Source: Amycolatopsis tolypomycina (GTDB lineage: Bacteria > Actinomycetota > Actinomycetes > Mycobacteriales > Pseudonocardiaceae). Taken from it: 64,000 nt of DNA. The translations under genes were made by a program, and so were the position numbers. The stretch covers positions 744,001-808,000 of the forward strand of contig NZ_FNSO01000003.1 of assembly GCF_900105945.1 (NCBI RefSeq). The letters run 5' to 3'. A model generated the notes under the pieces. It saw only the letters and a program-made list of their open reading frames with translations, had not been told where the DNA came from and made no database searches. This document shows, in pieces, positions 14,601 to 40,063 of this stretch. Each line of letters starts with the position of its first letter. The stretch's first letter is position 1.

Positions 14601-14607
14601 CCTCCTT
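14601..14607 (-). promoter_or_regulatory. Strong ribosome binding site before a non-standard ATT start
   Basis: AAGGAGG on the minus strand, five bases ahead of an in-frame ATT (14595-14593) of the STAND gene. No ATG, GTG or TTG is found at a usable distance in frame. Confidence 0.45.
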
Positions 14608-23639: not shown

Positions 23640-23880
23640 GCGCTGAGATTCGGCAAGCAGCCAACCTGCTGGTTCTGGAACGTCACCGGGAGGCCGCCAC
23701 CATCATCACCTCCAAGCGGGCGCCGCCGGAGATCCTCGCGATGATGGCCGACCCCCTGCTCGCGCAGTCCGCGATCGACCGGTTCCAGTCCGCCGCCTTC
23801 GAGCTCGTCATCGAAGGCGAGAGTCTATCGGAAGCCCACCACCGTCACCCTTGTCGACCAGCACGAGGACACCCCGTAGT
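23640..23880 (+). pseudogene. IS21-family helper (IstB-like) C-terminal relic
   Basis: The segment AMMADPLLAQSAIDRFQSAA followed by FELVIEGES is the C-terminal signature of IstB-like ATP-binding proteins of IS21 elements. After GES a one-base shift leads into YRKPTTVTLVDQHEDTP and a stop. The N-terminal ATPase part and the IstA transposase are missing. Confidence 0.65.
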
Positions 23881-24121
23881 TGACCGTTGGCACCGTCTGG
23901 CTCACCATCAACACGCGGCCCGCGACCGCCGGTCCGAGCTGGTCCCTAGCTCGCGGAAACGGTGGTCCCATGCTCGTGGCAGGCGGCAGAACGGGCGTCA
24001 GTGGCTTCGGCGCTCTTCGCGCGGATCGACAAGATAGCAGATGCCTGGCAACAAGGACGGCTTGCGCACGGCGGGTCGGATAGGCGACTGAGCTTCAAAG
24101 TACTATCTTGATCGTGGAGCC

Positions 24122-26152
24122 ATGTATCGTCAAGTCAACTCGAAGGTGAAGACACTGAGCACGCCACAGTCGTTTGCAGCCCCAGTCACGATCGGTACGA
24201 CCTCAGTGCCGGATGGCAAGGTCAGCGACTTTTTGACCGGGCGGCTATTCAAGGACACACCCGAGGAGTACGTGCGACAGAACGTCGAGAAGGCCTTGAT
24301 ACGCGGTTATCGCTACACGCCGAGAGACTGCGCCCCGGAGTTTCCCATCAAGGTCGGTTCGTCGCGCCGCAGGGTCGACATAGTTGTGTTCGCGCCTGGA
24401 CTTGAGCACGCTCAGGAAAATGCGTGGTTGCTGGTAGAGACAAAGAAGCGTGGCACTAGTGCGAGCAACAAGACCGAGGGAGTCGAACAGCTCAAGTCGT
24501 ACATGGCCGCTTGCTTGAACGTGCAGTATGGTATGTGGACCAATGGCGACGAGCAGCTCTTCTATGCCAAGAGGCAATCCGCACGCGGGTTCAAAATCGA
24601 AGAGATCATCGAAATCCCCGCCGCAGGCCAAACAGAGGCCGACGCTCAGAGGCCGAAGAGGAAAGATCTAAAGCCGGCGACGGCCGACAATCTATTGTTC
24701 GCTTTTCGGCGGTGTCACAACTATATTGCTGGAACTGAAGGAAAACAAAAATCAGACGCCTTCTGGGAGTTGCTCAAGCTCATCTTTTGCAAGATTGAAG
24801 ATGAACGCTCGAAGGTGCTGGATTTTTACGCCACGGCGGCGGAGCGTAATTCGGCTACCGCCGCCATCGCGGCCAAAAAGCGTATTCAAAAGGTCTTTAT
24901 CGACAAAGTCGTAAATAAGTATCCTGCTATCTTCCCCGGCTCAGATCGAGAGATCGATCTCAAGCCTGCCGTCGTTGCATTTGTCGCAACTCAATTGCAG
25001 GGGTTCTCTCTACTTGCTTCGCCTGTGGACGTTAAGGGCGTTGCCTACGAAGAGGTCGTTGGCAGCAATCTTCGGGGCGACCGCGGTGAGTTCTTTACCC
25101 CTCGGAATGCTTGCCGCATGGCAGTAACCATGCTGAACCCTCAGCCCGATGAGCGACTCATTGATCCGGCTTGCGGTACGGGTGGCTTTCTTATTACGGC
25201 CATGAATGCTGCCCTTGACCATATTGAAGCGGAAGAGCGCGCGGAATGGGTGGACCCGGCCAATGGTACAGACGCCGAGCGTCAGCAACTGTGGACTAGG
25301 CGAAACGAGTACCTGTCACGGTGCGTCCACGGCGCGGATCTAAACCCAGGTCTAGTCCGTGCGGCGAAGATGAATATGGTCATGAATAATGACGGTTCCG
25401 GCGGCCTTTTTCAGGCAAACAGTCTTGCCAATCCACACTTATGGGACCCAAAGGCAACCGACGCAATTCGCTTGGGATCATTCGACGTTGTGGTCAGTAA
25501 TCCGCCGTTTGGTGCAAATATTCTCATTGATGACGAAGAGGTATTGCGGCAGTACGATTTGGCGGCCATGTGGGACCGTGACGAAGCTGGTGGATGGAAA
25601 CTCCGAAAAGACTCTAGCGGGCAAGCGGTTTTGCAGAAGTCGCAGCCGCCGGAGATCCTCTTCATCGAGCGATGTGTTCAACTACTCCGTCCGGGGACCG
25701 GACGGATGGCAATGGTCATTCCTAATGGAATCTTGAATAACCCCGCACTTGGCTACGTACGCCACTGGATCATGACGAACACACAAGTGCTTGCTGTCGT
25801 CGACATGTCACGAGAACTCTTTCAGCCCAAGAATGACACGCAAACCAGCATGGTTCTGCTTCGCCGATTGTCCGACGACGAACGCCAACAGGCCGAAAAC
25901 GGCGCCCTTGACTATCCAATCTTTATGGCCGTTACTCGATCGATCGGACACGACAAGCGGGGAAACGTCACATTTCGCCGCACTGAGACCGGCGAAGACG
26001 TCGTCGTGAAGCGCATTGATACGATAGCCGAGATTGACCCAGAGTCGGGAAATGAGGTTCTGCGTCAGGTCGAGACGGAAGAGCGATTGATCGACGACGA
26101 ACTTCCCGATGTCGCTCGGGAATACCTTCACTGGCTGGGAGAGCAGTCGTGA
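24122..26152 (+). CDS. Nuclease-methylase fusion of a BcgI/type I-like restriction-modification system
   Basis: 676 residues. Residues about 35-160 form an HsdR_N-like PD-(D/E)XK domain with D86, E106 and K108 (RRVDIVVF and LLVETKK). Residues about 290-640 are an N6-adenine methylase of HsdM type with motif I DPACGTGGFL (348-357) and motif IV NPPF (460-463). The same order occurs in the A subunit of type IIB enzymes such as BcgI. Its stop overlaps the specificity gene start (GTGA). The base composition is visibly less GC-rich than neighbouring genes, a sign of transfer. No separate HsdR translocase is present. Confidence 0.85.
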   Translation: MYRQVNSKVKTLSTPQSFAAPVTIGTTSVPDGKVSDFLTGRLFKDTPEEYVRQNVEKALIRGYRYTPRDCAPEFPIKVGSSRRRVDIVVFAPGLEHAQENAWLLVETKKRGTSASNKTEGVEQLKSYMAACLNVQYGMWTNGDEQLFYAKRQSARGFKIEEIIEIPAAGQTEADAQRPKRKDLKPATADNLLFAFRRCHNYIAGTEGKQKSDAFWELLKLIFCKIEDERSKVLDFYATAAERNSATAAIAAKKRIQKVFIDKVVNKYPAIFPGSDREIDLKPAVVAFVATQLQGFSLLASPVDVKGVAYEEVVGSNLRGDRGEFFTPRNACRMAVTMLNPQPDERLIDPACGTGGFLITAMNAALDHIEAEERAEWVDPANGTDAERQQLWTRRNEYLSRCVHGADLNPGLVRAAKMNMVMNNDGSGGLFQANSLANPHLWDPKATDAIRLGSFDVVVSNPPFGANILIDDEEVLRQYDLAAMWDRDEAGGWKLRKDSSGQAVLQKSQPPEILFIERCVQLLRPGTGRMAMVIPNGILNNPALGYVRHWIMTNTQVLAVVDMSRELFQPKNDTQTSMVLLRRLSDDERQQAENGALDYPIFMAVTRSIGHDKRGNVTFRRTETGEDVVVKRIDTIAEIDPESGNEVLRQVETEERLIDDELPDVAREYLHWLGEQS

Positions 26153-27519
26153 AAGGGATGAAGGAATTCGGGGTATCAATACGCTCGCGTTCGATCCGAG
26201 CGTACGATCGCCTCGATGCCGCCTTTTATTCGACTGATTCGATCCTTGCGACTGAGCGTATTGCATTACTAGAGGCATCGGGGATGGCGATCAGGCAGAT
26301 CGGGGCCATTGGATCTGCGTCGATGCCACCACGGACAGCGCTTGCGCGCGCGGCACCTCAGGAATCCTCGCTCCCCTACCTGCGGCCCTACGATGTGTTT
26401 GACTATTTGCCCACCGCCGCGGATCACGTTTCCGTCCCACGAAACGCCAACGTCGATACATTCCAGATTACGGCTGGCGACATCCTGCAAACGCGATCTG
26501 GTCGAAATCTCGGCCCTTGTACCATTGCTGACAACGAACTGGCGAAATTCGCACTGTCCGACGACATGATTCGAATCAAGGTCGATGACAAAAATGAGCG
26601 TTTGCTCCTGCTTGCTTACCTGAAAACATCGCTAGGGCAAGCGCTTATACGTCGAGGGCGAAGCGGATCGGTAATCGACCATCTCACAGTTCCCGATGTG
26701 GAAGCTGTTCCTGTGCCGGTATTTCCCAAAGAAGTGGTGCATACTGTCAGCGGCTTGGTTGGCAAGGCCATTGAATGCCGGGAGCGTGGCCGCAGTCTGC
26801 TAAATGAGCTCCTGCGCAGGCTCATGGATCAGTATCCTCACTCTGAAAGTCAGCGTTGGACGTGGTGGTCCATGCAGGCCCGGGACCTTGGGGAGCGCTT
26901 GGATTCAGGGCATCATCACCCGGTAGTGGCTCATGGTCGACGGCAATTGCACGCATCCAACGGTGTCGCTTTGGGCGCTATGGCGAAGGCGATACTTCCG
27001 ATCCGATATAAGCGGTATTATGTCGAAGAAGGTCATGGTCGACCAATCGTCAGTGGGCGTCAACTTTTGCAACCGGAGCCAATTAATCTTCGATACGTAT
27101 CTGACAGATCATTTCGCAATCCTGAGGACTATGAGATTCATGCGGGCTGTACTGTCTTCGGTGCAGTAGGTCGCGCTGAGGGGCGCCAGGCATGGCCCGC
27201 TCTCGTCACCAGTGATCGTGATGGATGGCTCGCGAGCAATGACGTAATGCGGCTCGTGCCGCGACGAGGTGTTCGCCCGGGTGCAGTATGGCTTGCGGTT
27301 GCAACACCTCAGGTTCAAGCGCAAATTAAGGCACTCTCATTCGGTAGCGTTGTCGACCACATGAACCCTTGGGATGTTGAGCAAGTGATTGTCCCCGACA
27401 TAGAAGATCCGCTCGCGAAAAAGGCAGAGTCGGCGTGGGAGGACTTCGCCCGCAGCACCGAGTTGATAGGCCAGGCAGTCGCCCGGCTCGAACAGAGCCT
27501 TGAAGAATTTACACGCTGA
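26149..27519 (+). CDS. Specificity subunit (HsdS-like)
   Basis: 456 residues from a GTG overlapping the methylase stop. Two target-recognition halves are seen. Each ends in a SGSVIDHLTVPDVEAVPVP-like phrase (about 180-200; the second is FGSVVDHMNPWDVEQVIVP near residue 405) followed by a helical spacer (LLNELLRRL and RLEQSLEEF). This is the two-TRD layout of type I and type IIB S subunits that recognise a bipartite site. It acts with the upstream fusion protein. AT-rich codon use matches its partner. Confidence 0.85.
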   Translation: MKGMKEFGVSIRSRSIRAYDRLDAAFYSTDSILATERIALLEASGMAIRQIGAIGSASMPPRTALARAAPQESSLPYLRPYDVFDYLPTAADHVSVPRNANVDTFQITAGDILQTRSGRNLGPCTIADNELAKFALSDDMIRIKVDDKNERLLLLAYLKTSLGQALIRRGRSGSVIDHLTVPDVEAVPVPVFPKEVVHTVSGLVGKAIECRERGRSLLNELLRRLMDQYPHSESQRWTWWSMQARDLGERLDSGHHHPVVAHGRRQLHASNGVALGAMAKAILPIRYKRYYVEEGHGRPIVSGRQLLQPEPINLRYVSDRSFRNPEDYEIHAGCTVFGAVGRAEGRQAWPALVTSDRDGWLASNDVMRLVPRRGVRPGAVWLAVATPQVQAQIKALSFGSVVDHMNPWDVEQVIVPDIEDPLAKKAESAWEDFARSTELIGQAVARLEQSLEEFTR

Positions 27520-27584
27520 AGTGTCGTCGTTTCGTGCTGCTGGCCTGGAATAGGGGGTACTGCTAACCTGACGTCACGCGCACG

Positions 27585-27602
27585 GAGTAACGGGAGTTAC
27601 TC
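27585..27602. repeat. Small perfect inverted repeat downstream of the R-M genes
   Basis: GAGTAAC at 27585-27591 and GTTACTC at 27596-27602 with a four-base loop. It could be a weak terminator or operator for the R-M pair. Confidence 0.35.
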
Positions 27603-27670
27603 AGCATCGGAGACGCGCGTGGGCTTTCTGTCGGCGTCGGCGCGAGACCTCGTAACCCGTCTTAGCTGAC

Positions 27671-28020
27671 CTCGTGGGTCGGTCTGAGGACTCGCTGAGC
27701 AAGATCCAGCGTGGTGAGCACGATATCCGTAGGCTGGACGTCATGGCGGGAGTTAAGGCGCTTCGTGACGCCCGGGGATCTGCTCGGTGAGCTGCCCTCA
27801 TGGAAGACAAAGAACGCAACGACGACGTTCCCGCCGTCCGTGACGCGTTGATGGCTTCCCGTCGCGTGTCCCCAGACGTTGTTTGCGTCAGCGGGCGTCC
27901 TGGGCGGATCAAACCGGCCTCGGGTGTCGCGCTGGTCGAAAGTGCCTGGTTAAGCTATCAGGTCGGCGACATCGGGCACGTGATCCGGGCGGTGCGGGGC
28001 TGATCAAGACCGGTGCCGAC
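27671..28020 (+). pseudogene. Relic of an actinobacterial XRE-family regulator
   Basis: Pieces in different frames give LVGRSEDSLSKIQRGEHDIR, then MEDKERNDDVPAVRDALMAS, then VESAWLSYQVGDIGHVIRAV. These match in order the HTH end, linker and TPR-like start of a common actinobacterial XRE regulator (WLSKIERGER type). Several frameshifts and a stop separate them. The 5' part of the HTH is missing. Confidence 0.6.
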
Positions 28021-28042
28021 CACGTCACCGAGCGTGCCCCGG

Positions 28043-28625
28043 GACCAAGCCTGGAAACGGCGCTCAGCCGGCGACGGCGCGAAAGGGCGACGGCTGACGA
28101 TTGGGCAGTGGCGGCGTTGCCCGCTGGCGAACACACCCCGCCCGAGTGGACATGGTGGCCGCTCATCCGGCGCCAGATCACCACCGCGGGAAAGGAACCC
28201 GAACTCGCCTTCTACCCCTGCTGCGCCCCGAAGCCGCCACCGACGCCGAGATCGTGCGCGTCGCCGGAGCCTGCTGGTGCCATCGAGGAATGCTTCCAGA
28301 GCGCGCCAAAAATACGAGGTCGGCCTCGGCCACTTCCAAGTGCGCCACTACGACTCCTGATACCAGGACATCACCCTCGCCTCGCTTGTCCACACGTACC
28401 CCGCCGTCGACGTAGCGTTGACCCAAAAGCTCTGGCCGTGGCTTCATTTCACTCACCCTCGCCGAAATCAGCCGTCTCTTGGCACACTGACATGGCTGTC
28501 CGATCGCGTCCGCACCTGGGTCTGGTCGGGCTGGCGCCGACGTCGCCACAACCGAGCGGAACTGGCCACCATTGGCGACGACATCCCGTCATCGACAGCT
28601 GGCGATGCCTGAGGTGTGCGTTCCA
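28043..28625 (+). pseudogene. IS701-family transposase relic
   Basis: Collinear pieces in changing frames read AWKRRSAGDGAKGRR, then WAVAALPAGEHTPPEWTWW, LIRRQITTAGKEPELAFYPC, EIVRVAGACW, IEECFQSA, then EVGLGHFQVRHYDS. The last ones are the C-terminal DDE-domain signature of IS701/IS4-like transposases (the glutamate lies in IEECFQ). The end reads GWRRRRHNRAEL, also typical. Multiple frameshifts; no terminal inverted repeats were located. Confidence 0.65.
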
Positions 28626-28749
28626 GCCTGGGCCAATTGAGTGATCCGTGGCGTTGTGACTCACGAGTGGTGATCGCCTCAATATGATGTCACGTCGTGC
28701 GGATAGTCCATCACCACCCGTTCTTTTGGCGTGCCGCGCGGGGTCGTGA

Positions 28750-30408
28750 ATGAGTGCCGAGGAGGCCCCGCCGCAGAACGAGCCGCTGCCGGTGCTCGAT
28801 CTTGTTCGCGTGGCAGCTGGGGCAGGCCGTGGGGGTGAGTGGACGTGTCCGTCGTCGTTGGGATGGAAGTCGCGACCGAGAGCAGCCTCGGTAAGCCGCT
28901 TCCCCTACGAGCACTTGGACGATTTCGTTCTTCGCCCGGTGATGGCCGCCCTGGACAAGGTCGAGTTCGACAAGTCGTCGGCCGACGAGGCTCTGGCGGA
29001 GGTTCAGCGCCGGGGCAAGCCGACCCATCCTGGGGTCAGCCGGTTTGCCGAACATGCGACCCGTATGTATCTCGCGTCGCATCAGCAACGTGACGACACC
29101 ATGAGGCCAGTACGCGAGTTCTGGGTCGCCCAGCGGATCACGACCTCGGTGGTGTGGGAGCTGTACGGGTGGGGACGTCGGTACGAGTCGACGGACGGCC
29201 GGCTACGGGAGTTCCGATTCCTGCGGCTCGGCGCTGTGGATTCTCGTGATCGGGACCCGGCTGAGATCGCGCTCGCGGCCTACGCTGCGGCCTTCGGCGC
29301 GCCGGCGGCCTGGCCGGATCCGTGGTCGCAACCCTTCAGCCCGAGCGGCCGCGCGGGCGCAGAGCGTGTGCGGGTGGTGGACGTCGGGTTGCTCGATGGC
29401 TCGACGGTGCAGTGCTTCGATGGCACAGCGGACGAGGTCGAGGAGTATTTCGCCGAGCACGGTCGGCGCCAGGTCAGCACGATCGTGGCGGGCAGTGACG
29501 CGGTCCCGGGCTCGGGGTGCGCCAGTTGCAAGCGAGTCACGGTGTGCGATGGACCGGTCCGGACTCCGGGGCTACTGGGTCTTGAGGCGTCGCAGGGGCC
29601 GTTGCGGACGGTGTCGATCAGTGGGCTTCGGTACTACCGTAAGTGTCCGGCGCAGGCGTACCTGCGTTCGGTTCACCTGCCGCGCGCGTACGAGTACAGC
29701 GCCGAGGCGGAGCTGGGGCAGGCGGTGCATGCGTGGCTGGAGGCGGCGCACGAGGCTCAGCTGGTCCCGTGCGGCCGGGATGATCTGCCGGCGCTCGGCT
29801 CGAGTTGGTTCGCCGGAAAGTGGTACGTCGCGGCTGGCGACCTGGCGGACGCCGGTATCCGCATGCTGGCTCACCACGTCGAGGTGTGCCCGTTTCGCGA
29901 GGCTCCGGAGATCGATTCAGTCCAGGTCGAGCCGCGGTTGACCTTTGCGGACACGACGGCGCGTGCGATCGTGCTGGCGAGGCCTGATCTGGTGTACCGG
30001 GAGGCCGGGCAGTGGGTCTGGCGCGAGCTCAAGACAACTCAGAAGGCGCCGGAGTCGTTCGGCGACCCGTTGCGGAAATTCCCTCAGCTCGCGCTCGGCG
30101 TGGCGGTGCTGGCTGCCGGTGGGCTCGGTCCCGGCGGCGCGGGCCGGGTCGAGTTGGAGATCTTGCGTCCGACGGGCGCGGAGATCGTGCTGATCGACCC
30201 CACCGACGACGAGCGGGTCGAGACGGCACGCGCGGTGCTGCGCGAATGGGCCGCCGCGTGGCGTGCGGACCACTCGTTCGAGGCACGAGCGGGCCGAAAC
30301 TGTCGGTGGTGTCCGGTATCACTGTGGTGTCCGAGCTACCCCGGCCCGGACGGGAACGGGAAGGACCACCCCAGTGGTGCCGCGTCAGCAACAGCAGCCG
30401 AGAGCTGA
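28750..30408 (+). CDS. Cas4/AddB-like PD-(D/E)XK nuclease with Fe-S cluster, first gene of the pPIWI-RE operon
   Basis: 552 residues. The C-terminal half carries a complete RecB/Cas4-type site: H327 in GQAVHAWLEA, D413 in RPDLVY, E426 and K428 in RELKTT, Q446 in KFPQLAL. Cys299 (KCPAQAYLR) with Cys518, Cys521 and Cys527 (CRWCPVSLWC) form the split four-Cys iron-sulphur arrangement of AddB/Cas4 nucleases. An additional Cys set (CASCKRVTVC, 257-266) is in the middle. The N-terminal 250 residues are not recognised. The gene overlaps the next one by 35 bases. It is probably a single-strand exonuclease/endonuclease working with the downstream helicase and PIWI. Confidence 0.8.
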   Translation: MSAEEAPPQNEPLPVLDLVRVAAGAGRGGEWTCPSSLGWKSRPRAASVSRFPYEHLDDFVLRPVMAALDKVEFDKSSADEALAEVQRRGKPTHPGVSRFAEHATRMYLASHQQRDDTMRPVREFWVAQRITTSVVWELYGWGRRYESTDGRLREFRFLRLGAVDSRDRDPAEIALAAYAAAFGAPAAWPDPWSQPFSPSGRAGAERVRVVDVGLLDGSTVQCFDGTADEVEEYFAEHGRRQVSTIVAGSDAVPGSGCASCKRVTVCDGPVRTPGLLGLEASQGPLRTVSISGLRYYRKCPAQAYLRSVHLPRAYEYSAEAELGQAVHAWLEAAHEAQLVPCGRDDLPALGSSWFAGKWYVAAGDLADAGIRMLAHHVEVCPFREAPEIDSVQVEPRLTFADTTARAIVLARPDLVYREAGQWVWRELKTTQKAPESFGDPLRKFPQLALGVAVLAAGGLGPGGAGRVELEILRPTGAEIVLIDPTDDERVETARAVLREWAAAWRADHSFEARAGRNCRWCPVSLWCPSYPGPDGNGKDHPSGAASATAAES

Positions 30409-31552
30409 ATCCGTTTTCGAGGGCGAGCCCCTGGTGAAGATGGTGGCCAGCGCCATCGTGCGGCTCTCGCAGCAACAGGGTCCGCAGGAGCCCGTCTACG
30501 ACGCCACGGTGCAGAACACCTACAACCAGCTCGTGTTGCTGTGCCTGCGGAAAGGACAGACACCGCCGGCGAGCGTGCCAGAAATGGTCAGGTGGGCGGC
30601 ACAGCACCCGATCGGTGAGGACCCGTGGCCCTGGACGTTGCCGGAGGACTTCGACGGCGGCGGGGCCGTGCTGGTCGACGACCAGACGCACACCCCGACC
30701 CAGCAGTGCTGGGAGTGGCGGGTCGCGGCACGCGACGTCGCCGCCGAACAGGTCGAGAACCAGCTGATGCTGACGGCGATTGCCGAGTGCCGGGCCGCGA
30801 ACGCCCCCGAGTCCTACACCGCGTTCCGTCGGCTGCTGATCCGGCAGCCGGTGCTGACCGGTGCCGAACGCGCCGCGATCGCCGACGACGACCTGGACCT
30901 GGAGCTGCTGCACGACACGATCAAGCGCTGCTACGAGCTCGCACCGGCGTCGTACCTGCGCGACGGTGCGTACGCGCTGTGCGCGCGGTGCGGGTGTCTG
31001 CTGGCGCCGATCGGCCGGGACCGCTACGTCTGCGAACTGGACCGATGCCGGCGCGACCAGCATCCCCGGGTCGGCCAGCTGGTCGAGGCGCGCCGGGGCG
31101 GTGGCCTGTACCAGCTCAACCGGCCGATGCGGATGTTCATCACCGGCCCCGGCCTGGCGGAGACCGATCTCGAAGCCGAGCTGCTTAAGCGCGGGCTCCG
31201 CCCGCAGATGTGGCCCAACTTCGACGCCTACGACCTGCGCATCACCCTGCCACGCGGGCGCGTGTGGGCGATCGACGTGAAGGACCGGGCCAATCCCGCG
31301 CTGCTCGGCCGCGGCGCTGCGCCGCTGCGGCACGACCCGCCCTACGACGAGGGTTTCCTGGTCGCGCCGCAGTACCGATTCGACGAGCGCGAGGACTACG
31401 GCCGGGTGTTCGCCCACCACCGTCCCGACGAGCTGACCGGCAAGGTCGGCCTGATCTCCGACCGCGAGCTCCTGGCCCGGGTGGATCGAGAACTTCGCCG
31501 CGCCGGCCGCAGCGCAGTCACCGCGACGATTGAGGGGGCAGCCGATGCGTGA
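30374..31552 (+). CDS. REase-fold protein with embedded zinc ribbon (pPIWI-RE-associated REase)
   Basis: About 392 residues from a GTG at 30374 with AAGGA upstream; the next codon is also GTG. The N-terminal 190 residues are helical. A zinc ribbon follows (Cys203, Cys206, Cys220, Cys225; CARCGC and CELDRC). The restriction-endonuclease-like domain has D287 (DAYDLRI) and D301-V-K303 (WAIDVKD), a PD-(D/E)XK core. In the published pPIWI-RE islands a REase gene of this kind accompanies the helicase and PIWI. It overlaps both its upstream gene (35 bases) and the helicase gene (8 bases). Confidence 0.8.
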   Translation: MVPRQQQQPRAESVFEGEPLVKMVASAIVRLSQQQGPQEPVYDATVQNTYNQLVLLCLRKGQTPPASVPEMVRWAAQHPIGEDPWPWTLPEDFDGGGAVLVDDQTHTPTQQCWEWRVAARDVAAEQVENQLMLTAIAECRAANAPESYTAFRRLLIRQPVLTGAERAAIADDDLDLELLHDTIKRCYELAPASYLRDGAYALCARCGCLLAPIGRDRYVCELDRCRRDQHPRVGQLVEARRGGGLYQLNRPMRMFITGPGLAETDLEAELLKRGLRPQMWPNFDAYDLRITLPRGRVWAIDVKDRANPALLGRGAAPLRHDPPYDEGFLVAPQYRFDEREDYGRVFAHHRPDELTGKVGLISDRELLARVDRELRRAGRSAVTATIEGAADA

Positions 31553-34500
31553 ACGGAGTGGATGGAACGCCCGTCTGCTGGGCCAGCTCACCCCGGTCTG
31601 GCCGGAGACCCTCGCGGATTTCCGGCCGGGGCAGATGCTCGACGTGGAGCTCGGGCTCTACCTGCTCTGCTCGGCGACGCCGGGACACACCGCGCAGGAT
31701 GCCTGGACACTGTTCGGCGGTTACCCCTACAGCGAGGTGTTCGGCGCCCAGGCCGCCGATACACACCTTCGGGTGATGCACGGCCGGCACTACCTGTGGG
31801 ACATGCGCCGCCGCCGGGAATGGATCCGCGCGGTCGAGGCCTACCTGCGCGTGCCCGAGGAACTCCGCGGCTACCGCCTCACCGGCGTCGACAGCACACC
31901 GGAGCAGCGCGAGCCCAGCCGCGCGGCGGACCGGTTCGAGGTGTACGAAGCGCTGCTGACCACCCCGCCGGCCTTCGCTCGCCAGCCGCTGCCGCTCGCG
32001 GGGCCGGGCGAGTACGAGTTTTATGTGCGTGACCGGCGCTACTCGGTCACCTTCCCGGCAGAGCTGCTCGCGGACATCCCGGCACCGATCGGGCACGACC
32101 TCGATGGGATGCCTCCGTGCGGCGGCGCGCCGGTGGAGGTCACGTGGGAAGAGCTGGAAGACGCTGCGGCCAAGATGGACGCGATCGAGCAGAACCTGCC
32201 CGGCAAGCCCAACGAGTGGGCGCGTCGCCTGCGCCGTGTGCAGCTGCTGATCCGCGACGACGCTCGCGGTAAGTTCGCCGAGCCCGAGGATGGGCGCCTG
32301 CGGGTCGATCGGCTGATGAACCTGGTCGGCATGGTGGGCGCCGGCAAATCGACGCTGCGCGACATCCTGGCCTTCTGGGCTGCCACCGAGACCGGACGGC
32401 GCATCACGATCGTCGTCGGTGACGTCGCCGAAACCCTCGCGATCGTCGACCAGTTCACCCGCCTCGGAGTCGACGCAGCCCCGGTCCTGGGCCACTCCAC
32501 GCGCGAGCGCAACCTCGAACGGTTGCACCGCCGGATGGCCTCAGCCGGAGCCGACACCATGCTCGGCCACGACCACCCCAGCTTCGACTACCTCAGCAGC
32601 GCCTGCCCGCTGGACGCGCTGCGCGGAGTGGAAGCGCGCCAGCCTCTGCGGATCGCCGAAGCACCCTGCACCGCGCTCTACCCCGTCCAGCGCCCCGATC
32701 CCGACGCGGACGACTTCCTCGCCACCGCCGGCAACGACACTGCCCGTTCGACCGGAACCGGGCGCCGGAAGCGGCACGGCTGCCCGCTGTGGACGGTGTG
32801 TCCCCGCCACCACGGCGCCCGCCGCCTGGTCGATGCCCAGATTTGGGTCGCCACCCCGGCGAGCCTCGTCCACAGCGGCCTTCCGCCGACTCTGCAAGCC
32901 GAGCGTCTCCGCCACCTGGAGGCAGCGTGCCGGCTGAGCGATCTCGTCATCGTGGATGAAGCTGACCGGGTCCAGATGCAGCTCGACCGCGCCTTCGCCC
33001 CGGCCACCACGCTGGCGGGACGGTCGCCGAACTCGTGGCTGGACGAGGTCGCCGGCCACAAGGTGGCCGAGCTGGCTCGCCGCGGACGACTGCAGCTGTC
33101 GGCCCAGGACGTGGACGACTGGACCGGCGCCATCGACACCGTCTCGGCGGCCACCGACCGGCTCTACTCCCTGCTCATCGGCACCCCACCGCTGCGCAGC
33201 TGGATCACCGCGGACTACTTCAACGCGATGACGCTGCACCAGTGGCTGATCCGATCGTGGTTTCCCGACCTCATCGGGCACGCCGACGATCTCGCTGCGG
33301 CAGGCCCCGTGGCACCGGACCGCGACCAGCGGCAGGCCCGGATGGATCATGTCGAGGCCGTCCTCGACCAGTTCCGCGACGACCCGCTCGAGGAAACTGC
33401 GCCGCGTGATCAGGCCGATCGAGTCACGCCTGCAGCGAACACCCTGGTGCACCTGACCTTGCAGCTGCTGCACGCACACCGCGACTCCTTGATCCGCCAG
33501 CGGCTGCGAGAGGTCGTGCTCGAGCTCGTCGAGCACGACCCCGCCATCGCCGACGACCTGGAAACCCACGCCAAGCGCTTCGAACTCACCCTCATCCTCG
33601 CGGCCCTGCACCATCGGCTGGACCGGATGACGATCCTGTGGCCCCGGGTGGAGGCCGCGCTCAACCTGGAAGCCACGTCCAACGTGCTCTCCCGGCGCCC
33701 GCCCAAGGACTACGAGCCGGTCATACCGGAATCGCCCATGGGCAACGTCCTGGGGTTCCAGTTCCAGCTCGGTGAACGCACCGCCGACGGCGACCAGAGC
33801 GGCGAGCTGCGGTTCTTCCGCTGCAGCGGCGTCGGCCGCGAGCTGCTGCTCGGCCTGCCCGACCTGCCCATCGTCGACGACAGGCCCGGCCCGAACGTCC
33901 TGCTCATGTCAGCGACCAGCTGGGCAGGCACCTCCACCCGCTACCACGTCCACGCCCCGGTCGACGCCGTCCTGCGACCGCACGACGACGAAGTCACCGC
34001 GATCCTCGACACCACGATGCGGACCCAGTTCCTGTACTGGCCCGGCACCACGCCGCCGAGGCCCCTGCGGCTGTCCGGAAGCGGCCCGGACGATCGCGAG
34101 AAGGTCCTCGAGCAGATGCTCAATCAGCTGGCGATCCCGGACCGCAGCCTCGGCGACGCCCCGAGCATGCTCGACGCGGAACTGGCCGACATCGACGACT
34201 CGGACCGGCGCCGGATCCTGCTGCTCGTCGGCAGCTACGCCGAAGCGAAGCACGCTGCGCGGCATCTGGACAGCATCCCGGAATGGAGCGGCCGGGTCAC
34301 GCAGCTCGTCTCCGATGACGCCGATCTCGACAACAGCTGGATGGTGCTGCGCCGCGGCGAGCTGACCAAGTTTCCCGACCTCGGCAGCGAAATCCTCGTG
34401 GCGCCCCTGCTGGCGGTCGAGCGCGGCCACAACATCGTCCTGCCCGGCGGCAAGGCCGCCATCGGCAGCGTCTACTTCCTCGCCCGGCCACACCCTCGAC

Positions 34501-34985
34501 CGGACGACATCGCCCTGGCCATCCACGCGATCAACGACTGGGCCGTCCGGCAGATCCGTAACCCCGCCCGCACCTTCCATACCGACGCCCGCGCCGCCGG
34601 CACCCCCGACCAGGCGGCGCTGGCGTTCCGCAGGCGAGCACGCCAGGAGTGGAACCGGTTCCTCACCCGCCAAGTGGCATGGAGCAGCCTGACCCCGACC
34701 GAGAAGATCAGCTTCACCTGGGACCAACTGGTCGTCATGTGGCAGGTGATCGGCCGCCTGGTCCGCGGCGGTGTCCCCGCCCGGGTGGTCTGCGTCGACG
34801 CGGCCTTCGCGCCCCGCCAGGCCGGATTCCACGCCGCCGACACCCCCGACACCAGCCTGCTGGCCAGCATGCGCGCCGTCCTCCACCCGTACTTCACCGA
34901 CGACCCGACGACCACCCCACTCGACCGGTCCCTCGTGCAAGCCCTCTACGAGCCGCTCTACCGGGCGCTCGGCGACCTCGACTGA
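31545..34985 (+). CDS. DinG-type Fe-S superfamily 2 helicase of the pPIWI-RE island
   Basis: 1146 residues from the ATG with GAGGGGG six bases upstream. The N-terminal 240 residues are an island-specific region. Walker A is VGMVGAGKST (261-270). Four cysteines (354, 375, 413, 419; ending GCPLWTVCP) lie between motifs I and II as in XPD/DinG Fe-S helicases. Motif II is VDEADR (DEAD at 471-474), and a late QVIGRLVRGG is motif VI-like. DinG helicases unwind D-loops, R-loops and RNA-DNA hybrids. It lies between the REase and PIWI genes, 24 bases before the latter. Confidence 0.85.
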   Translation: MRERSGWNARLLGQLTPVWPETLADFRPGQMLDVELGLYLLCSATPGHTAQDAWTLFGGYPYSEVFGAQAADTHLRVMHGRHYLWDMRRRREWIRAVEAYLRVPEELRGYRLTGVDSTPEQREPSRAADRFEVYEALLTTPPAFARQPLPLAGPGEYEFYVRDRRYSVTFPAELLADIPAPIGHDLDGMPPCGGAPVEVTWEELEDAAAKMDAIEQNLPGKPNEWARRLRRVQLLIRDDARGKFAEPEDGRLRVDRLMNLVGMVGAGKSTLRDILAFWAATETGRRITIVVGDVAETLAIVDQFTRLGVDAAPVLGHSTRERNLERLHRRMASAGADTMLGHDHPSFDYLSSACPLDALRGVEARQPLRIAEAPCTALYPVQRPDPDADDFLATAGNDTARSTGTGRRKRHGCPLWTVCPRHHGARRLVDAQIWVATPASLVHSGLPPTLQAERLRHLEAACRLSDLVIVDEADRVQMQLDRAFAPATTLAGRSPNSWLDEVAGHKVAELARRGRLQLSAQDVDDWTGAIDTVSAATDRLYSLLIGTPPLRSWITADYFNAMTLHQWLIRSWFPDLIGHADDLAAAGPVAPDRDQRQARMDHVEAVLDQFRDDPLEETAPRDQADRVTPAANTLVHLTLQLLHAHRDSLIRQRLREVVLELVEHDPAIADDLETHAKRFELTLILAALHHRLDRMTILWPRVEAALNLEATSNVLSRRPPKDYEPVIPESPMGNVLGFQFQLGERTADGDQSGELRFFRCSGVGRELLLGLPDLPIVDDRPGPNVLLMSATSWAGTSTRYHVHAPVDAVLRPHDDEVTAILDTTMRTQFLYWPGTTPPRPLRLSGSGPDDREKVLEQMLNQLAIPDRSLGDAPSMLDAELADIDDSDRRRILLLVGSYAEAKHAARHLDSIPEWSGRVTQLVSDDADLDNSWMVLRRGELTKFPDLGSEILVAPLLAVERGHNIVLPGGKAAIGSVYFLARPHPRPDDIALAIHAINDWAVRQIRNPARTFHTDARAAGTPDQAALAFRRRARQEWNRFLTRQVAWSSLTPTEKISFTWDQLVVMWQVIGRLVRGGVPARVVCVDAAFAPRQAGFHAADTPDTSLLASMRAVLHPYFTDDPTTTPLDRSLVQALYEPLYRALGDLD

Positions 34986-35009
34986 CCCGCGACCACAACA
35001 GGGAACCCC

Positions 35010-37784
35010 ATGGTCTTCAACGAAATCCAACCTGCCGCGCTCATCCCCGACCCCGACAACGGGCCCTACGAGCTCGACCTGCACACCCTGGCCTTCCCCG
35101 CGGCGTGGCGCGACCCCGTCCTCGACCTGTACAAGTTCGGCAAGTCCGACGCGAAACAGGCCAAGATCAAAGAAGTGCCGATCAAGTCGCTCAACGCGCT
35201 GATCCGCACCGTCGCGCCGGACTTGGTCACCGTCGACGCCAACGCCTCCTTCGACGCCACGCAGCCCTGGCTCTACAGCCGGACCGACTACCCACCACGC
35301 ATCCTCGCCCGGCTGGTACATGCGTGGCTGCGCAACCTGCAACCCACCCCCGAGGGCTTCCAACGGTTCCGGGAGACCGCGCGGATGCTCGACGTGGACT
35401 CCTTGTGCTGGCAGTCGGAGACCGTGGACCTGCTCGAGCACGAACTCTCGCCGGGCGGCACCTGCGTCCCGGCCTCACGGCTCTACCGGGTCCTGCCGGA
35501 GATCCTGGCCGACCGCATCGCCGCCCAGCCGGCCTACGAATTCTGCGGCGAACACGTGAAGTTCCACCGGGTCGCCGTCGACGCCCGCGCGAACGGCGCC
35601 GAACTGATGTCCTGGCCGCCGCTGAAGCACACCACCAAGGTCACCGACAAGGACGCCCGCAACCGCTACGGCAGCCACCGGGACTGGCGGTACTCCGCGG
35701 TGATCAGCGTCTCGCTGCGCACCGTGCCGTTCTCACCGAACCCGCGGATCTACCTGAGCACCCGGATCCGCCGATGGGTCGCCGGCCAGGTGTCGATGTC
35801 CGGCACCCAACGAGTGTCGGCCTACCTGCTCACGAAGGAACCATTCATCGAAGACGGTCAGCAGCCCGGCCGGTTCGCCGTCGCCCAGTTCGCCTGGAAC
35901 CCCCGCACCCGCCAGATCGAGTGGGTCCAAGGGGGACCGGAGGGCATGCTCGCTCGCGTCGGCGCCATCGACAACCTCCCCGCCGCCGATGTGTTCGCCA
36001 AGGAACCCGACACCTGGATCGACGAACGCGACGGCATCCAAGGGGCCGCCAGCTACCACACCATGATGGGCTGGCACGGTGTCGGCGCTGGGCTCATGCC
36101 CGCCGAACGACGCCGGCTGACCGAATGGGCCGCCGCCGCGCTCGAGCCCGAACTCATCCCGGCACCGGCACTGGTGCGCAGCAAGGTCAAACAGAACCCG
36201 GCGAAGCTCCTCACTCCGAAAGTGCCTGTTCCGAAGCAGAACGCGACGGACGACGAGATCGAACAGGCCGTCGCAACGAACCGACTCATCGACTTCGACA
36301 ACTCCGTGCGCCGCCGCGAGTACGCGGCACTCGCCCTCGACGACCGGGACCTCACCGCCGTCCTGCTGTACCAGTCCAGCCACATGCGGAACCAGCTCAT
36401 CCAGGCCGCAGAGGCCAGCCTCGGACTCGCCGACTACCGCGAAGCAGCCGGACCGGACGTGTGGAGCTGGAACGCCCCCGACCTCCGCGTGCGCATCCAC
36501 GCCCGCGAGCTCGGGGCGCTGGGAGCACCACTGGGCACCAGCGAACGAGCGCCCCGGAAAGGCCAGGAACACATCGACGCGATCGGCCACCGCCGCTCCG
36601 CCGTCGCCGCCCACCTCCGCACCCTCGCCGCCGAACTCGGCGAGGCAACCGTCATCACCTTCGTCGAGCTCGACGGGCGCGACAAGTTCAAGCCACGAAC
36701 AACCGACCCGAAATTCGCCGTCCGGCTCGGCTGCGCCGACGCCGGCATGGTCAGCCAATTCTTCACCCCCGGGAACCCGAACGACCCCGATGACGATGCG
36801 GAGTTCCGTGTCGCGGCAGCCTGGGCAGACGGACTCCGCCAGCTCGGCATGCGTCTCATCCCCGAACACACCGTCGGCGACAAGATCCCTGACGGCCTCA
36901 ACCAGCTCGCGTTCTGGATCGTCAAACGCCAGGCCACCGGCGAGACACATCGGCCACAATTCACCCCGGTCGCGGTCCTCATCCGCCCCGGGCAGAAGTG
37001 CATCCTCGGCCGGACACCTGAGATGACCGAGTGGGTCCCCTACCCGCAGCTGCTCATCGCCCTCACCGGCCAGGTACGGCCCCAAGACCTCTCCACAGCC
37101 GACCAGCAGACCAAGGCCGTCGCCGCCTTCGTCCAGAACACGATCTACGCCATGCGAGGCACCCCCACCCTGGTCGTCACCCACGCCCAGAACACCCGCA
37201 ACCGGTGGCCCTGGCTGACCAACAGCGGCCTCATCGCCGACCGCATCAAGCTCGGCAACGGCCCGGCCCAGCGCATCCGGCTCTTCGGCTCCAACCTCCA
37301 CATCGCACGTATCGCCACCAACGACCGCGACGAAACCCCTCAATGGTGGGCGCCAAAGAACGACGAATCCGGCGGCATCAGCAAGGGTCTGTGGAAGCTC
37401 ACGAACATCGACAAGAACAGTCACGTCTTCTACAGCACGAGCGACAAGAGCGGAACCCACACGCTCTCCGTGGAAGCAACGAAACTCACTCACCGAATCA
37501 ACCCGAAAGGGAAGGAAGAAATCCGTCCGGACAAGAACGCCTGGAACCCGGAACTCTTGGAAATCACCATGATCGGCTTCTCGGATGCTGCCGAAGCCGA
37601 ACATTGGGCCATGTTCCTGCACCAGCAGCGATCTGCCGAGGACTACCGTGACGCACTCGCTCTTCCGCTGATCCAGCACATCGCCGAACTCACCTCCCAG
37701 TACGGACTGCCGCACGACGACGAACCCGACGACACGCCCGACACCCAACCCGATCAAGCCGAGGCGACCGCAGCCGGCAGTTAG
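35010..37784 (+). CDS. Prokaryotic PIWI protein, pPIWI-RE family
   Basis: 924 residues. The layout follows pPIWI-RE: an N-terminal X-type module (about 1-280), a MID-like region (about 290-510) and a C-terminal RNase H-fold PIWI domain (about 520-890). In the last, FVELDGRD (E553, D555), AVRLGCADAGMVSQF and RLIPEHTVGDKIPDGLNQLA (E619) are the most recognisable family stretches. The family is named for conserved Arg and Glu residues and has been proposed to bind RNA-DNA hybrids; which residues are those cannot be fixed without an alignment. No PAZ domain is evident. Last gene of a four-gene operon; the C-terminal 25 residues are acidic. Confidence 0.88.
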   Translation: MVFNEIQPAALIPDPDNGPYELDLHTLAFPAAWRDPVLDLYKFGKSDAKQAKIKEVPIKSLNALIRTVAPDLVTVDANASFDATQPWLYSRTDYPPRILARLVHAWLRNLQPTPEGFQRFRETARMLDVDSLCWQSETVDLLEHELSPGGTCVPASRLYRVLPEILADRIAAQPAYEFCGEHVKFHRVAVDARANGAELMSWPPLKHTTKVTDKDARNRYGSHRDWRYSAVISVSLRTVPFSPNPRIYLSTRIRRWVAGQVSMSGTQRVSAYLLTKEPFIEDGQQPGRFAVAQFAWNPRTRQIEWVQGGPEGMLARVGAIDNLPAADVFAKEPDTWIDERDGIQGAASYHTMMGWHGVGAGLMPAERRRLTEWAAAALEPELIPAPALVRSKVKQNPAKLLTPKVPVPKQNATDDEIEQAVATNRLIDFDNSVRRREYAALALDDRDLTAVLLYQSSHMRNQLIQAAEASLGLADYREAAGPDVWSWNAPDLRVRIHARELGALGAPLGTSERAPRKGQEHIDAIGHRRSAVAAHLRTLAAELGEATVITFVELDGRDKFKPRTTDPKFAVRLGCADAGMVSQFFTPGNPNDPDDDAEFRVAAAWADGLRQLGMRLIPEHTVGDKIPDGLNQLAFWIVKRQATGETHRPQFTPVAVLIRPGQKCILGRTPEMTEWVPYPQLLIALTGQVRPQDLSTADQQTKAVAAFVQNTIYAMRGTPTLVVTHAQNTRNRWPWLTNSGLIADRIKLGNGPAQRIRLFGSNLHIARIATNDRDETPQWWAPKNDESGGISKGLWKLTNIDKNSHVFYSTSDKSGTHTLSVEATKLTHRINPKGKEEIRPDKNAWNPELLEITMIGFSDAAEAEHWAMFLHQQRSAEDYRDALALPLIQHIAELTSQYGLPHDDEPDDTPDTQPDQAEATAAGS

Positions 37785-37848
37785 GCTACGCACCCCGAGC
37801 GTCGGCCAAGTCGGGCCACGCCTGGCGCACGTCGCATGCGCCGCGCGC

Positions 37849-38049
37849 TCATCGCTCGTCGTGCAAGGAGATGGGTTCGTAGACGCCGCCGGCGAGCAGG
37901 CCTGCAGCGGCGAGGCGGTGGCGGAGCTGTTCTGTTTGGTCAGTCGCCTCATCGTCGATCTTGATGCCGTCAAGGCGTACTCCGAAGACGGCAAAATCAC
38001 GGTCGACTTCTCTACGGAGCAGTCCGAGACCCTGATCCAAGTTTGTCAT
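37849..38049 (-). CDS. Short paralogue of the product at 11391-11783
   Basis: 66 residues. The last 33 residues (EATDQTEQLRHRL, then LAGGVYEPISLHDE) match the C-terminus of the protein encoded at 11391-11783 with few changes, and the DNA is also similar. The first 30 residues are unrelated, so this is probably a truncated copy with a new start. It is convergent with the PIWI gene. Confidence 0.5.
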   Translation of the reverse strand: MTNLDQGLGLLRREVDRDFAVFGVRLDGIKIDDEATDQTEQLRHRLAAAGLLAGGVYEPISLHDER

Positions 38050-38194
38050 CGACTACACACGGCAGCTGGCCCAGGCGACCTCGATCGATCTGGATGAGTT
38101 ACCGGAGTCGACCTCGACTTCGGTGGACGCTCCCGCCGTGGACCTGCGTCGCTACCTTGAGGTCCGGCGGAGAATCTTCAACGACGCAGCCTGA
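38039..38194 (+). pseudogene. C-terminal gene fragment
   Basis: An open frame without start reads KFVIDYTRQLAQATSIDLDE and ends RRYLEVRRRIFNDAA before TGA. Its composition is protein-like and the upstream frame is interrupted by a stop. The parent family is not recognised. The following 38195-38480 holds no gene. Confidence 0.35.
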
Positions 38195-38480
38195 TCGACC
38201 CAGCCCAGGCCGGCCGATCTACAGGTCTCAAGCATTACTCGAACTGGGCTTGTGCGTCCATGCATGTGCGCTGTGAAACTTCGGCACCCCACTGCAACGT
38301 CCACCGAAATCTTCGGTGGCGCCGACACCAGGTCACCGAGGACCGACGCCGCCGAGGCGAGAACCGGGATGCGGCGCTCCGCGATGACCATCGGGAAACC
38401 CCTGGGATGACCGGGGGCTAACCTGCGTCTGGAGCGTTGTCGCCGACGGACGAACCTGCGACGAAGGACGGGGAAGCATC

Positions 38481-39032
38481 GTGACGGTGGACACCGAGAA
38501 GTTGGCCTCCGTCTGCATAGAAGGCTCCATTGCGGATGAAGGTGCAAGGCAGTGGCCACGACCGCGAGTACCCTGCATCGCCGACCTTGACCACGCCGGA
38601 GCCCAGCTCCCGCAACGTCCAGCGACTCGGCCACAACCGTGGCTTGCCGCCAGGGATGCCCTAGGCAGGCGCGTCGCAGGATGGGATCCCTGGAAATTCG
38701 ACAGCCACCGCGCCCACCGCATGCGGTGCGAGGACCGGTGCCAGGTCTGCGGGACGCCACGGTCCGATGTCGTGTACGTCCTGGCGCCGGTCGGGCAGGT
38801 CAACACTCTGGTCGAGATGTACGGCGGCGCCGTGTGCTCGCTGAGGTGCGCACGGCTGACAGCCGCGGTGTGCCCGCACTACACCGACACCATTGGCTCG
38901 CCGATCGCGATCCACGCCGTTCCCCGACACGAACGGGTCGACCTGGTCGGCTGCGACCTGGCCAACGACGACGAGTACGACATCGCTGACCTTGGCCCGA
39001 TCACCGTGGTCGCCGCTGCCCGACGTCTGTGA
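38481..39032 (+). CDS. Hypothetical protein with Cys-rich zinc-binding region
   Basis: 183 residues from a GTG with GGGGAAG upstream. The N-terminal 80 residues are Pro/Arg-rich. The middle has CQVCG (about residue 88) and CSLRCARLTAAVCPHY (about 119-134), a likely zinc-binding module. The C-terminus is acidic with beta strands. I do not recognise a named family; similar Cys-rich small proteins are frequent on actinobacterial mobile elements. Confidence 0.6.
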   Translation: MTVDTEKLASVCIEGSIADEGARQWPRPRVPCIADLDHAGAQLPQRPATRPQPWLAARDALGRRVAGWDPWKFDSHRAHRMRCEDRCQVCGTPRSDVVYVLAPVGQVNTLVEMYGGAVCSLRCARLTAAVCPHYTDTIGSPIAIHAVPRHERVDLVGCDLANDDEYDIADLGPITVVAAARRL

Positions 39033-39174
39033 CGGCGTTGCGGAGGTGCGTCGTGCTGGCGGCCGGCGGACACCGCTGGCTCGGTGATTGCGGCGGCATG
39101 CATCACGGAGCGGAAGCGACATCGCGCCGTCTGCGCCCGCCGCATCTGCGGCCGCTCGACATCATCGACGGTTG

Positions 39175-39423
39175 CTATCCGCGGTGTTCACCCTTGGTCG
39201 CCCGCTGTCCTGGGCGGCCGTCCGGGGCGCCGACAACCGCCTCGTCGAGGACGTGAAGCTCGAATCGAGCTGTGTCGTAGCCGCCGATGTCCCAGGCAAG
39301 ATCACTGTTCCCGACGCGCCACTCGTGCCCGGTGGCCCGCTCCCGCAACAACCAAGCCACGTGCCCTCCCGCTGACGGCCTGACCGCACCCGACTCCGAC
39401 AACGGTATCAAAACGTGGAACAT
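39175..39423 (-). CDS. Possible small hypothetical protein
   Basis: 82 residues from the ATG at 39423. The segment GHVAWLLRERATGHEWRVGN followed by SDLAWDIGGYD looks like real protein, but no ribosome site is visible and the family is unknown. It lies in the otherwise gene-poor gap 39033-39472. Confidence 0.35.
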   Translation of the reverse strand: MFHVLIPLSESGAVRPSAGGHVAWLLRERATGHEWRVGNSDLAWDIGGYDTARFELHVLDEAVVGAPDGRPGQRATKGEHRG

Positions 39424-39472
39424 ACGTTCGACCAGGGCGAGGTGGTTCGTGGCCGGAGGCGGGAGCTGTGTG

Positions 39473-40063
39473 TCAGCTGCCGGTGAGCATTGCGAGGGTG
39501 ACGTCGGTGCCGGGGTTGGCGTTGTCCCTGGTGAGCTGATGCAGGATCTCGGCGGTGACGATGCGGGAGAGCGCGGTGCAGTGGCGTTCCCAGTCGTCGA
39601 AGGCTGCGGCCGCGGTGCTGTCGGCGACGCTCATCCGCCTCCGCAGTTCCTGATAGACGCCATAGCCGGGATCGTCCGGTCGTGGTTCGCACCCCTGCTC
39701 GATGAGGAGGAACTCCTTGAACAAGGCTCCTGCCGGGAGGTGATTGCGGGACAGGTCCGTCAACGACACGTCGGCCAGCGCCGCGGGCCCCTCCACGACT
39801 ATCTCGCGGGCCCGGGGGACGATCCTGGCGGCGGTCGTCGTCGCGGTGATCGCGTACGAGAGCATCACCAGCTCTATCGCACGTTCCTTGCGGTCGACGG
39901 AGCCCTCGGGCAGCGGGCCTGGGCGCCGATCGAACCGATCGAAAAGCACCTCGGCGTGGTGATAGGCCGCGCGCCACAGACTCGTCGGCTGCACCCCGAG
40001 CGCCCCTTGTTCGGCCAACTCGGCCGGCTCTTCCGCTTGACGATCCCGCTGTTGCCCGCTCAT
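39473..40063 (-). CDS. Hypothetical helical protein
   Basis: 196 residues from the ATG at 40063, with an excellent GGGAGGAAT site. The first 30 residues are Gln/Glu-rich; the rest is predicted helical (RAIELVMLSYAITATTTAAR, then YQELRRRMSVADSTAAAAFD). No motif is recognised. The stop is 50 bases beyond the divergent short candidate gene. Confidence 0.55.
   Translation of the reverse strand: MSGQQRDRQAEEPAELAEQGALGVQPTSLWRAAYHHAEVLFDRFDRRPGPLPEGSVDRKERAIELVMLSYAITATTTAARIVPRAREIVVEGPAALADVSLTDLSRNHLPAGALFKEFLLIEQGCEPRPDDPGYGVYQELRRRMSVADSTAAAAFDDWERHCTALSRIVTAEILHQLTRDNANPGTDVTLAMLTGS

Follow-up and report, generated by a model that had tools for sequence, protein, structure and literature searches.

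The operon described here lies in a 64,000-nt stretch of Amycolatopsis tolypomycina DNA (GCF_900105945.1, NZ_FNSO01000003.1, positions 744,001–808,000 of the forward strand), which is called the window below and to which all coordinates refer. Positions 28750–37784 contain four open, co-directional reading frames, which form an intact operon encoding a Cas4/AdnA-like nuclease (PprPDDEXK), a restriction endonuclease (REase) protein (PprRE), a DinG helicase (PprDinG) and a PIWI protein of the pPIWI-RE type (PprPIWI). The same gene identities and operon structure had been proposed in a reading of the sequence alone, and both were borne out. Each protein matched its Pfam families above the curated cut-off of the family, and the PADLOC-DB 2.0.0 profiles PprPDDEXK (1.3e-91), PprRE (2e-77), PprDinG (6.9e-257) and PprPIWI (2.2e-181) were matched over most of their length, so that by profile matches all four members of the PADLOC Ppr four-gene set are present. 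None of the four proteins matched NCBIfam at E 0.01. The domains, the gene order RE, DinG, PIWI and the overlap or short distance between adjacent genes support membership in the pPIWI-RE system predicted in 2013 (Burroughs, Iyer and Aravind, PMC3702460), which the sequence-only reading had also proposed. The spacing that it gave, with overlaps of 35 and 8 bases and a gap of 24, was reproduced when GTG 30374 was taken as the start of PprRE and ATG 31545 as that of PprDinG; the longest frames of both genes begin further upstream, and the overlap figures depend on the choice of start. The PprRE starts 30374 and 30263 are equally likely, ATG 31545 is a possible start of PprDinG, and PprPDDEXK has an alternative start at GTG 28810, with one database record of this protein being 532 amino acids long. 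In the whole genome the pPIWI-RE RNase H family is matched only once, in this operon. A search of positions 23000–40000 for a guide or another RNA gene gave nothing at Rfam gathering scores, and scans for sigma-70 promoters and terminators gave chance-level results, such scans being uninformative for an actinomycete.

The operon was compared with 73 further loci, giving a set of 74, from which 11 fragmentary PF13032 places were excluded (10 from a family genome sample and one from a phylum sample). The comparison showed that 38 loci have PDDEXK, RE and DinG genes, 30 have RE and DinG only, and six have no detected RE gene. Hence, the helicase and REase genes accompany the pPIWI-RE PIWI gene in 68 of the 74 loci, as expected for a conserved gene set. 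On the other hand, the sequence-only reading had regarded the Cas4-like gene as an extra, which did not hold: it is located upstream of RE in 38 of the 74 loci, has its own PADLOC-DB model, and marks a stable subtype.

Domains and active sites of the operon proteins

PprPIWI (35010..37784, plus strand) matched the pPIWI_RE_X (2.4e-96), MID (1.8e-26) and RNaseH (9.4e-64) families of Pfam, which places it in the PIWI superfamily. Its predicted structure matched Argonautes across residues 2–901; no chain in the PDB matched it by sequence. The MID residues R528, K568, Q583 and R610 are retained. The stretch from R659 to H725 (36984..37184, plus strand) was defined using the alignment and the strand ends, and a slicing Argonaute would be expected to have an aspartate at each of these two positions. 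R659 directly follows the strand 650–658, and H725 ends the strand 720–725; with these residues where RNase H strands 1 and 4 end, the protein does not have the DEDX tetrad of slicing Argonautes, nor does it have aspartates within two residues of both slicer columns. In the PIWI alignment, which contained 69 rows after the exclusion of five short ones (L058, L075, L093, L104, L114), both slicer aspartates were present in none of the 37 PDDEXK-bearing rows. The family-specific arginine and glutamate of the RNase H domain were found, with R730 being arginine in 67 and E851 glutamate in 65 of the 69 rows; the arginine described in PMC3702460 corresponds to R730 or R767, both of which PprPIWI has. 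PprPIWI seems no longer to have a cutting site of its own, and because both slicer aspartates are missing, its partner proteins are expected to do the cutting. The sequence-only reading had joined a guided PIWI and two nucleases into one machine, which is to be amended in that PIWI would leave the cutting to its partners. A PIWI sequence search did not have the Pseudomonas stutzeri protein among its matches, and the named matches were mostly cyanobacterial. The search for the classical Piwi family, meant for the profile of prokaryotic Argonautes (pAgos), was positive in one of 100 genomes. In one metagenome protein (P0100, 1231 amino acids) precomputed annotation shows a pPIWI-RE PIWI fused to BTAD (PF03704) and TPR domains.

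The first gene of the operon (28750..30408, plus strand) encodes the 552-amino-acid PD-(D/E)XK nuclease PprPDDEXK (PDDEXK_1, 1.2e-28). Its C-terminal RecB-type domain contains H334, D413, E426 and K428 together with the four cysteines C299, C518, C521 and C527, which is the arrangement of Cas4/RecB-type iron–sulfur nucleases, that is H...D...E/D-x-K with a cysteine before the domain and CxxCx5C after it. These eight residues are kept in all 38 PDDEXK loci, and the catalytic stretch D413...E426-x-K428 (29986..30033, plus strand) shows no variation in these loci or across the 52 sequences aligned. The N-terminal half has a second set of four cysteines (C33/C257/C260/C266) and no corresponding active site, and all eight cluster-type cysteines are retained, along with the catalytic residues, in the 38 loci. 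This half is possibly a degenerate tandem copy. The two halves have a like order of strands and helices, and their local profile score was 27.7–27.8, while 18 unrelated comparisons did not exceed 18.0; the probability of this local match was just 9–10%, and the global alignment was without signal (score –0.4, P 0.98). The fold search, which covers chiefly the C-terminal half, gave Cas4-type matches, as did the PADLOC Cas4 profile (4.1e-4), and the closest solved structures include the Argonaute-associated Cas4 family protein ACE1 and the Cas4 of Cas4–Cas1–Cas2. Neither cas1 nor cas2 was found in Pfam scans of the operon genes and their neighbors, with no search aimed at CRISPR made.

PprRE (30263..31552, plus strand; pPIWI_RE_Y 7.4e-39, pPIWI_RE_REase 1.8e-34) consists of a helical Y domain, a zinc ribbon (C240, C243, C257) and an REase domain, and it has the conserved arginine expected of the family. 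Among the 68 loci that have RE and DinG genes R189 is retained in 66, C240 in 68, C243 in 67 and C257 in 68. The catalytic stretch D321/D324...D338-x-K340 (31223..31282, plus strand) is intact in A. tolypomycina. Its D...DxK residues (columns 324, 338 and 340) are intact in all 30 loci without PDDEXK, while among the 38 loci with PDDEXK they are intact in 18 and lost in 20 (Fisher p 4e-7, a value valid only if the loci are independent). Because the RE site is intact wherever PDDEXK is missing, and the PDDEXK site is invariant, none of the 68 loci is left without a PD-(D/E)XK partner whose active site is intact. The retention of the zinc-ribbon cysteines would fit an adaptor function of the RE protein that outlasts the loss of its active site.

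PprDinG (31530..34985, plus strand) combines a Z domain (pPIWI_RE_Z, 6.5e-42) with a DinG-type superfamily 2 helicase. It contains the Walker A residue K273, the DEAD-box residues D476-E477-A-D479, four cysteines (C359/C380/C418/C424), and Q1072/R1076/R1079, which we take to be motif VI. Both the cysteine-rich iron-binding region and the Z domain of the DinG clade are thus present.

Distribution and inheritance of the Cas4-like gene

The pPIWI-RE RNase H family was detected in 65 of 297 Pseudonocardiaceae genomes and in six of 396 genomes of the phylum sample, with the A. tolypomycina genome included in both counts. Four relatives with 75–78% PIWI identity belong to Actinophytocola (two), Amycolatopsis and Prauserella, and Actinophytocola is also a member of the Pseudonocardiaceae. 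Two genomes (G184 and G290) carry two four-gene loci apiece. Some copies are broken: the PIWI frame is split or shortened in L058, L075 and L104, and the DinG frame also in L058, one of the 38 PDDEXK loci, where both frames are split, and in L104, which is near a contig end. Eight plasmid records matched pPIWI-RE, seven of them cyanobacterial and one from Streptomyces. In each of the six that were examined RE, DinG and PIWI genes were recognized by size, order and annotation, and a Cas4-like gene in the first place was found in none of these six. Five three-gene sets (L115, L116, L117, L119, L120) are on cyanobacterial plasmids, four of these plasmids being classed as conjugative or mobilizable, so that a putative anti-plasmid system is itself plasmid-borne. 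Searches of phage records with the PDDEXK and DinG proteins gave no match.

The DinG tree was calculated for 67 of the 74 loci and the six plasmid loci, while seven loci without a DinG frame longer than 900 amino acids were omitted. This large tree is of a quick type and has long branches (L111, L077, L113 and others). The 37 PDDEXK-bearing rows form a 32-row clade (SH-aLRT 100), which includes A. tolypomycina, and a separate clade of five rows, so that the presence of PDDEXK corresponds to two changes, which none of 500 shuffles reached. Inside the 32-row clade PDDEXK distances follow DinG distances closely (Mantel r 0.89, with none of 2000 permutations as high), while for all 37 rows r is 0.39. 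A comparison of the two clades gave ~12 changes per site for DinG, a saturated value, and a mean of 2.9 for PDDEXK, which is only slightly above the 2.4 found inside the large clade. It follows from this difference that the nuclease was passed between two lineages that are both old, and hence that pPIWI-RE lineages acquired it on at least two occasions. The co-inheritance indicates that the Cas4-like gene marks a stable pPIWI-RE subtype, which is the 32-row clade. The tree contains 19 of the 20 RE-dead loci, and for these two losses of the RE site suffice; every RE-dead row has PDDEXK. Taken together, the relatives suggest that the Cas4-like nuclease is a standing partner able to outlive the REase activity.

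The 297 genomes have 42 PDDEXK-family places at E <= 1e-20, and 36 of these belong to a pPIWI-RE locus. The remaining six (L131–L136) are the lowest-scoring complete ones; the surrounding DNA retrieved for them contains no RE, DinG or PIWI gene, and in two cases the contig ends only a few kilobases away. It is possible that these genes represent a stand-alone source of the recruited nuclease.

Genes next to the operon

Neighbor families were defined as single-linkage clusters of genes predicted with a caller based on third-codon-position GC (GC3), and the counts are approximate; a Pfam check confirmed seven of seven kinase and three of three STAND members. An AfsR-like STAND gene (BTAD/NB-ARC/TPR) is beside 20 of the 38 four-gene loci, and it accompanies 19 of 20 RE-dead but only one of 18 RE-intact loci. 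The link between RE loss and the STAND gene is a lead only, as the tree gives two independent pairs, with which significance is unreachable. The gene is downstream of and convergent with the operon in L043–L049, and upstream in the other 13 loci (L052, L057, L062, L066, L074, L076, L078–L083, L085), all 20 being PDDEXK-bearing. A Ser/Thr kinase gene is divergent and immediately upstream of the PDDEXK gene in 17 of the 38 loci (L042, L044, L047, L048, L049, L052, L062, L066, L074, L076, L078, L080–L083, L085, L109), and was Pfam-positive in six of six tested. In 11 loci (L050, L065, L084, L089, L095, L097, L102, L103, L105, L106, L108) a fusion of a caspase (Peptidase_C14) and a DEAD helicase is divergent from the operon, as judged by a Pfam test of L089 only, and a SEFIR/TIR protein is near six loci, five of which are among these 11. 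A HerA-like ATPase and an AIPR protein are located downstream of PIWI in L080, L082, L085 and L106, which represent two pPIWI-RE clades. In the stretches compared, none of the STAND, kinase, caspase–helicase and SEFIR/TIR families was found beside the A. tolypomycina operon. About 14 kb upstream of it the window contains, on the minus strand (11953–14751), a gene for a 932-amino-acid NB-ARC/TPR STAND-type protein with a weak helix–turn–helix match.

Positions 24122–27519 encode an N6 DNA methyltransferase with an HSDR_N domain and a specificity-like protein. The GC content of this region is 0.55–0.58, compared with 0.67–0.69 in the adjoining 2-kb windows; IS701-like DNA (~28015–28557) separates it from the operon, and IstB-like DNA is upstream (~23678–23821). 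Its nearest models are MAD2 and MAD5 of MADS, both under the NCBIfam cut-offs (612.5 of 720 and 180.7 of 400 bits). Over the 73 other loci the methyltransferase query gave weak matches of 33–50 bits in three, and the specificity query gave none. A methyltransferase stretch with 23% identity is found farther off in L005; L127 has an 84% identical methyltransferase without a detected specificity gene, and L128 and L129 have relatives with 35–39% identity, followed by specificity-like and very large genes. The pair was considered as a self-marking partner in the manner of restriction–modification and was rejected, because the other loci gave at most weak matches, insertion-sequence-like DNA separates the pair from the operon, and relatives of the methyltransferase are located in other operons. 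Hence, it is an insert unrelated to the operon.

Proposed mechanism, alternatives and known systems

The explanation that fits these data best, to which we assign a probability of about 0.5, is that a non-cutting PIWI marks DNA, DinG unwinds it and the partner nucleases degrade it. PIWI, guide-loaded or bound to an RNA–DNA hybrid or R-loop, would mark invading DNA without cutting it, and the DinG helicase would be loaded at the marked site and then unwind. The Cas4/AdnA-like nuclease could degrade the exposed strand alongside the helicase, by analogy to the nuclease domains of AdnA or AddB working with theirs, while the RE protein would add a cut or serve as a zinc-ribbon adaptor, with cutting by RE probable in A. 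tolypomycina. Because its site is unvarying in all loci compared, while the REase site decays in some, the Cas4-like enzyme would be the main and constant cutter of this subtype. This explanation builds on intact co-directional genes, a motif-complete DinG helicase, two motif-complete PD-(D/E)XK nucleases, a PIWI protein with its MID residues, and co-inheritance. From these sequence features we infer a role in defense, probably one in which plasmids, conjugative elements or phage DNA are eliminated.

A broader reading, which we hold at even odds and for which no description was found in the literature searched, is that the PIWI of this family mostly gave up cutting in favor of exchangeable PD-(D/E)XK partners. 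The Cas4-like nuclease, perhaps a tandem with two metal clusters, would have been taken up on at least two occasions by very distant lineages, and in one lineage would have displaced the REase twice, so that RE persists as an adaptor without catalytic activity in operons with a STAND (AfsR-like) neighbor and often a Ser/Thr kinase. The A. tolypomycina operon, with both nucleases still intact, would then be an intermediate and, if this is true, a place to test the nuclease hand-over. The predictions are that PIWI binds without cutting, that K428 of PDDEXK is essential, and that K340 of RE is dispensable in at least some relatives. Three-gene loci with live RE, four-gene loci with both nucleases live, such as A. 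tolypomycina, and four-gene loci with dead RE form a natural series, in which the division of labor could be compared.

Several observations weigh against the proposed mechanism. The loss of the RE site corresponds to two events, which leaves its link to PDDEXK suggestive and statistically insecure at the event level. The slicer columns were placed by alignment and strand ends and not against a pPIWI-RE known to cut, and when aspartates within two residues of both columns are allowed, 15 of 69 rows qualify (two of the 37 PDDEXK-bearing ones), none of which comes from the clade of the A. tolypomycina operon. The six lone PDDEXK relatives suggest that the enzyme may act without PIWI. Finally, PsPIWI-RE of P. 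stutzeri, the one biochemically studied PIWI-RE found, cuts alone, performing RNA-guided single-stranded DNA cleavage and DNA-guided RNA cleavage, and its ciprofloxacin phenotype points at replication instead of defense, as survival of the drug was ~15-fold higher in the wild type than in the piwi-re deletion strain, whose cells became filamentous (PMC10991935). This effect, together with the action of DinG-like helicases on R-loops (PMC3702460), could also mean that the system clears R-loops or replication–transcription conflicts, of host or foreign origin, and thus serves genome maintenance or the response to replication stress instead of defense. Such a role seems improbable given the patchy, transferable-looking spread in 65 of 297 and six of 396 genomes, the three-gene forms on five cyanobacterial plasmids, the paired loci in G184 and G290, and broken copies such as L058.

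The Cas4 of CRISPR systems trims prespacers, and the Cas4-like nuclease could in a similar way make guides for PIWI from the ends of foreign DNA, with DinG and the REase or other partners as the effectors. Its closest folds, ACE1 and the Cas4 of Cas4–Cas1–Cas2 complexes, are consistent with this role, as are the observations that long-A pAgo genes sometimes cluster with Cas4-like genes and that a Cas4-like nuclease, as SeAgo, restricts RSF1010 replicons in S. elongatus (PMC10653904). We consider guide-making unlikely, because 30 loci do without the Cas4-like gene, and because in 20 of the 38 four-gene loci PDDEXK is the only operon nuclease with an intact site, the REase being dead and PIWI never having the two aspartates together, unless in these RE-dead loci the neighboring STAND protein or kinase serves as effector. 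Abortive infection by unspecific nuclease activity is the mode of action of SPARDA, and guided recognition by PIWI could likewise unleash unspecific nucleases, so that DNA is degraded and the cell is killed. This explanation seems as improbable as a role in R-loop clearance, because a dedicated helicase suits processive degradation of a target better than unspecific activation, and the relevant neighbors were not found, in the stretches compared, at the A. tolypomycina operon or at the nine other rows of its 10-row clade.

The proposed division of labor between a non-cutting PIWI and its partners is similar to the earlier proposal that PIWI senses RNA–DNA hybrids, DinG is recruited and the REase cleaves (PMC3702460), which it would amend for this subtype by making the Cas4-like enzyme the constant cutter. 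The three-gene system described there shares with the A. tolypomycina operon a PIWI with X, MID and RNaseH domains, an REase with Y domain and zinc ribbon, a DinG with Z domain, the order RE–DinG–PIWI, the tight packing and the patchy spread; unlike it, the A. tolypomycina operon opens with a fourth, Cas4-like gene, while the main text of that paper gives three-gene and standalone contexts and contains neither "cas4" nor "recb". The four-gene set is already known to at least one database, PADLOC-DB, which has a PprPDDEXK model and from whose Ppr models the operon showed no difference in content. The PADLOC web-server paper cites the 2013 study (PMC9252829); the literature search found no text describing the Ppr models and no study of the four-gene form. 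A tie of PIWI-RE to modified bases (PMC7641849) was dropped, as the 12 places read, of 14, say only "Piwi-related". The sequence-only reading had named no established mechanism, which is to be qualified by the activities of PsPIWI-RE. That protein belongs to the same PIWI family, and its gene co-occurs with a DinG helicase and an "RNase", with no Cas4-like partner mentioned in the sections consulted; it cuts with D525 and D610, while A. tolypomycina has R659 and H725 at the presumed equivalent columns, which were not aligned directly (PMC10991935). The ACE1 chains (PDB 9iab, 9iac), with 266–269 residues, are half the size of PprPDDEXK. In AdnAB and AddAB nuclease and helicase are fused, and PIWI is not involved. 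DdmDE differs from pPIWI-RE in its helicase and nuclease families and in having two proteins instead of four. It is similar in that a DNA-guided, catalytically inactive Argonaute brings in an unwinding and cutting partner (PMC12904381, where table and text assign the two subunit names oppositely). Hence, if the proposed mechanism is true, the operon would combine guidance by PIWI with an AdnAB-like helicase–nuclease machine, with a logic near that of DdmDE built from other parts.
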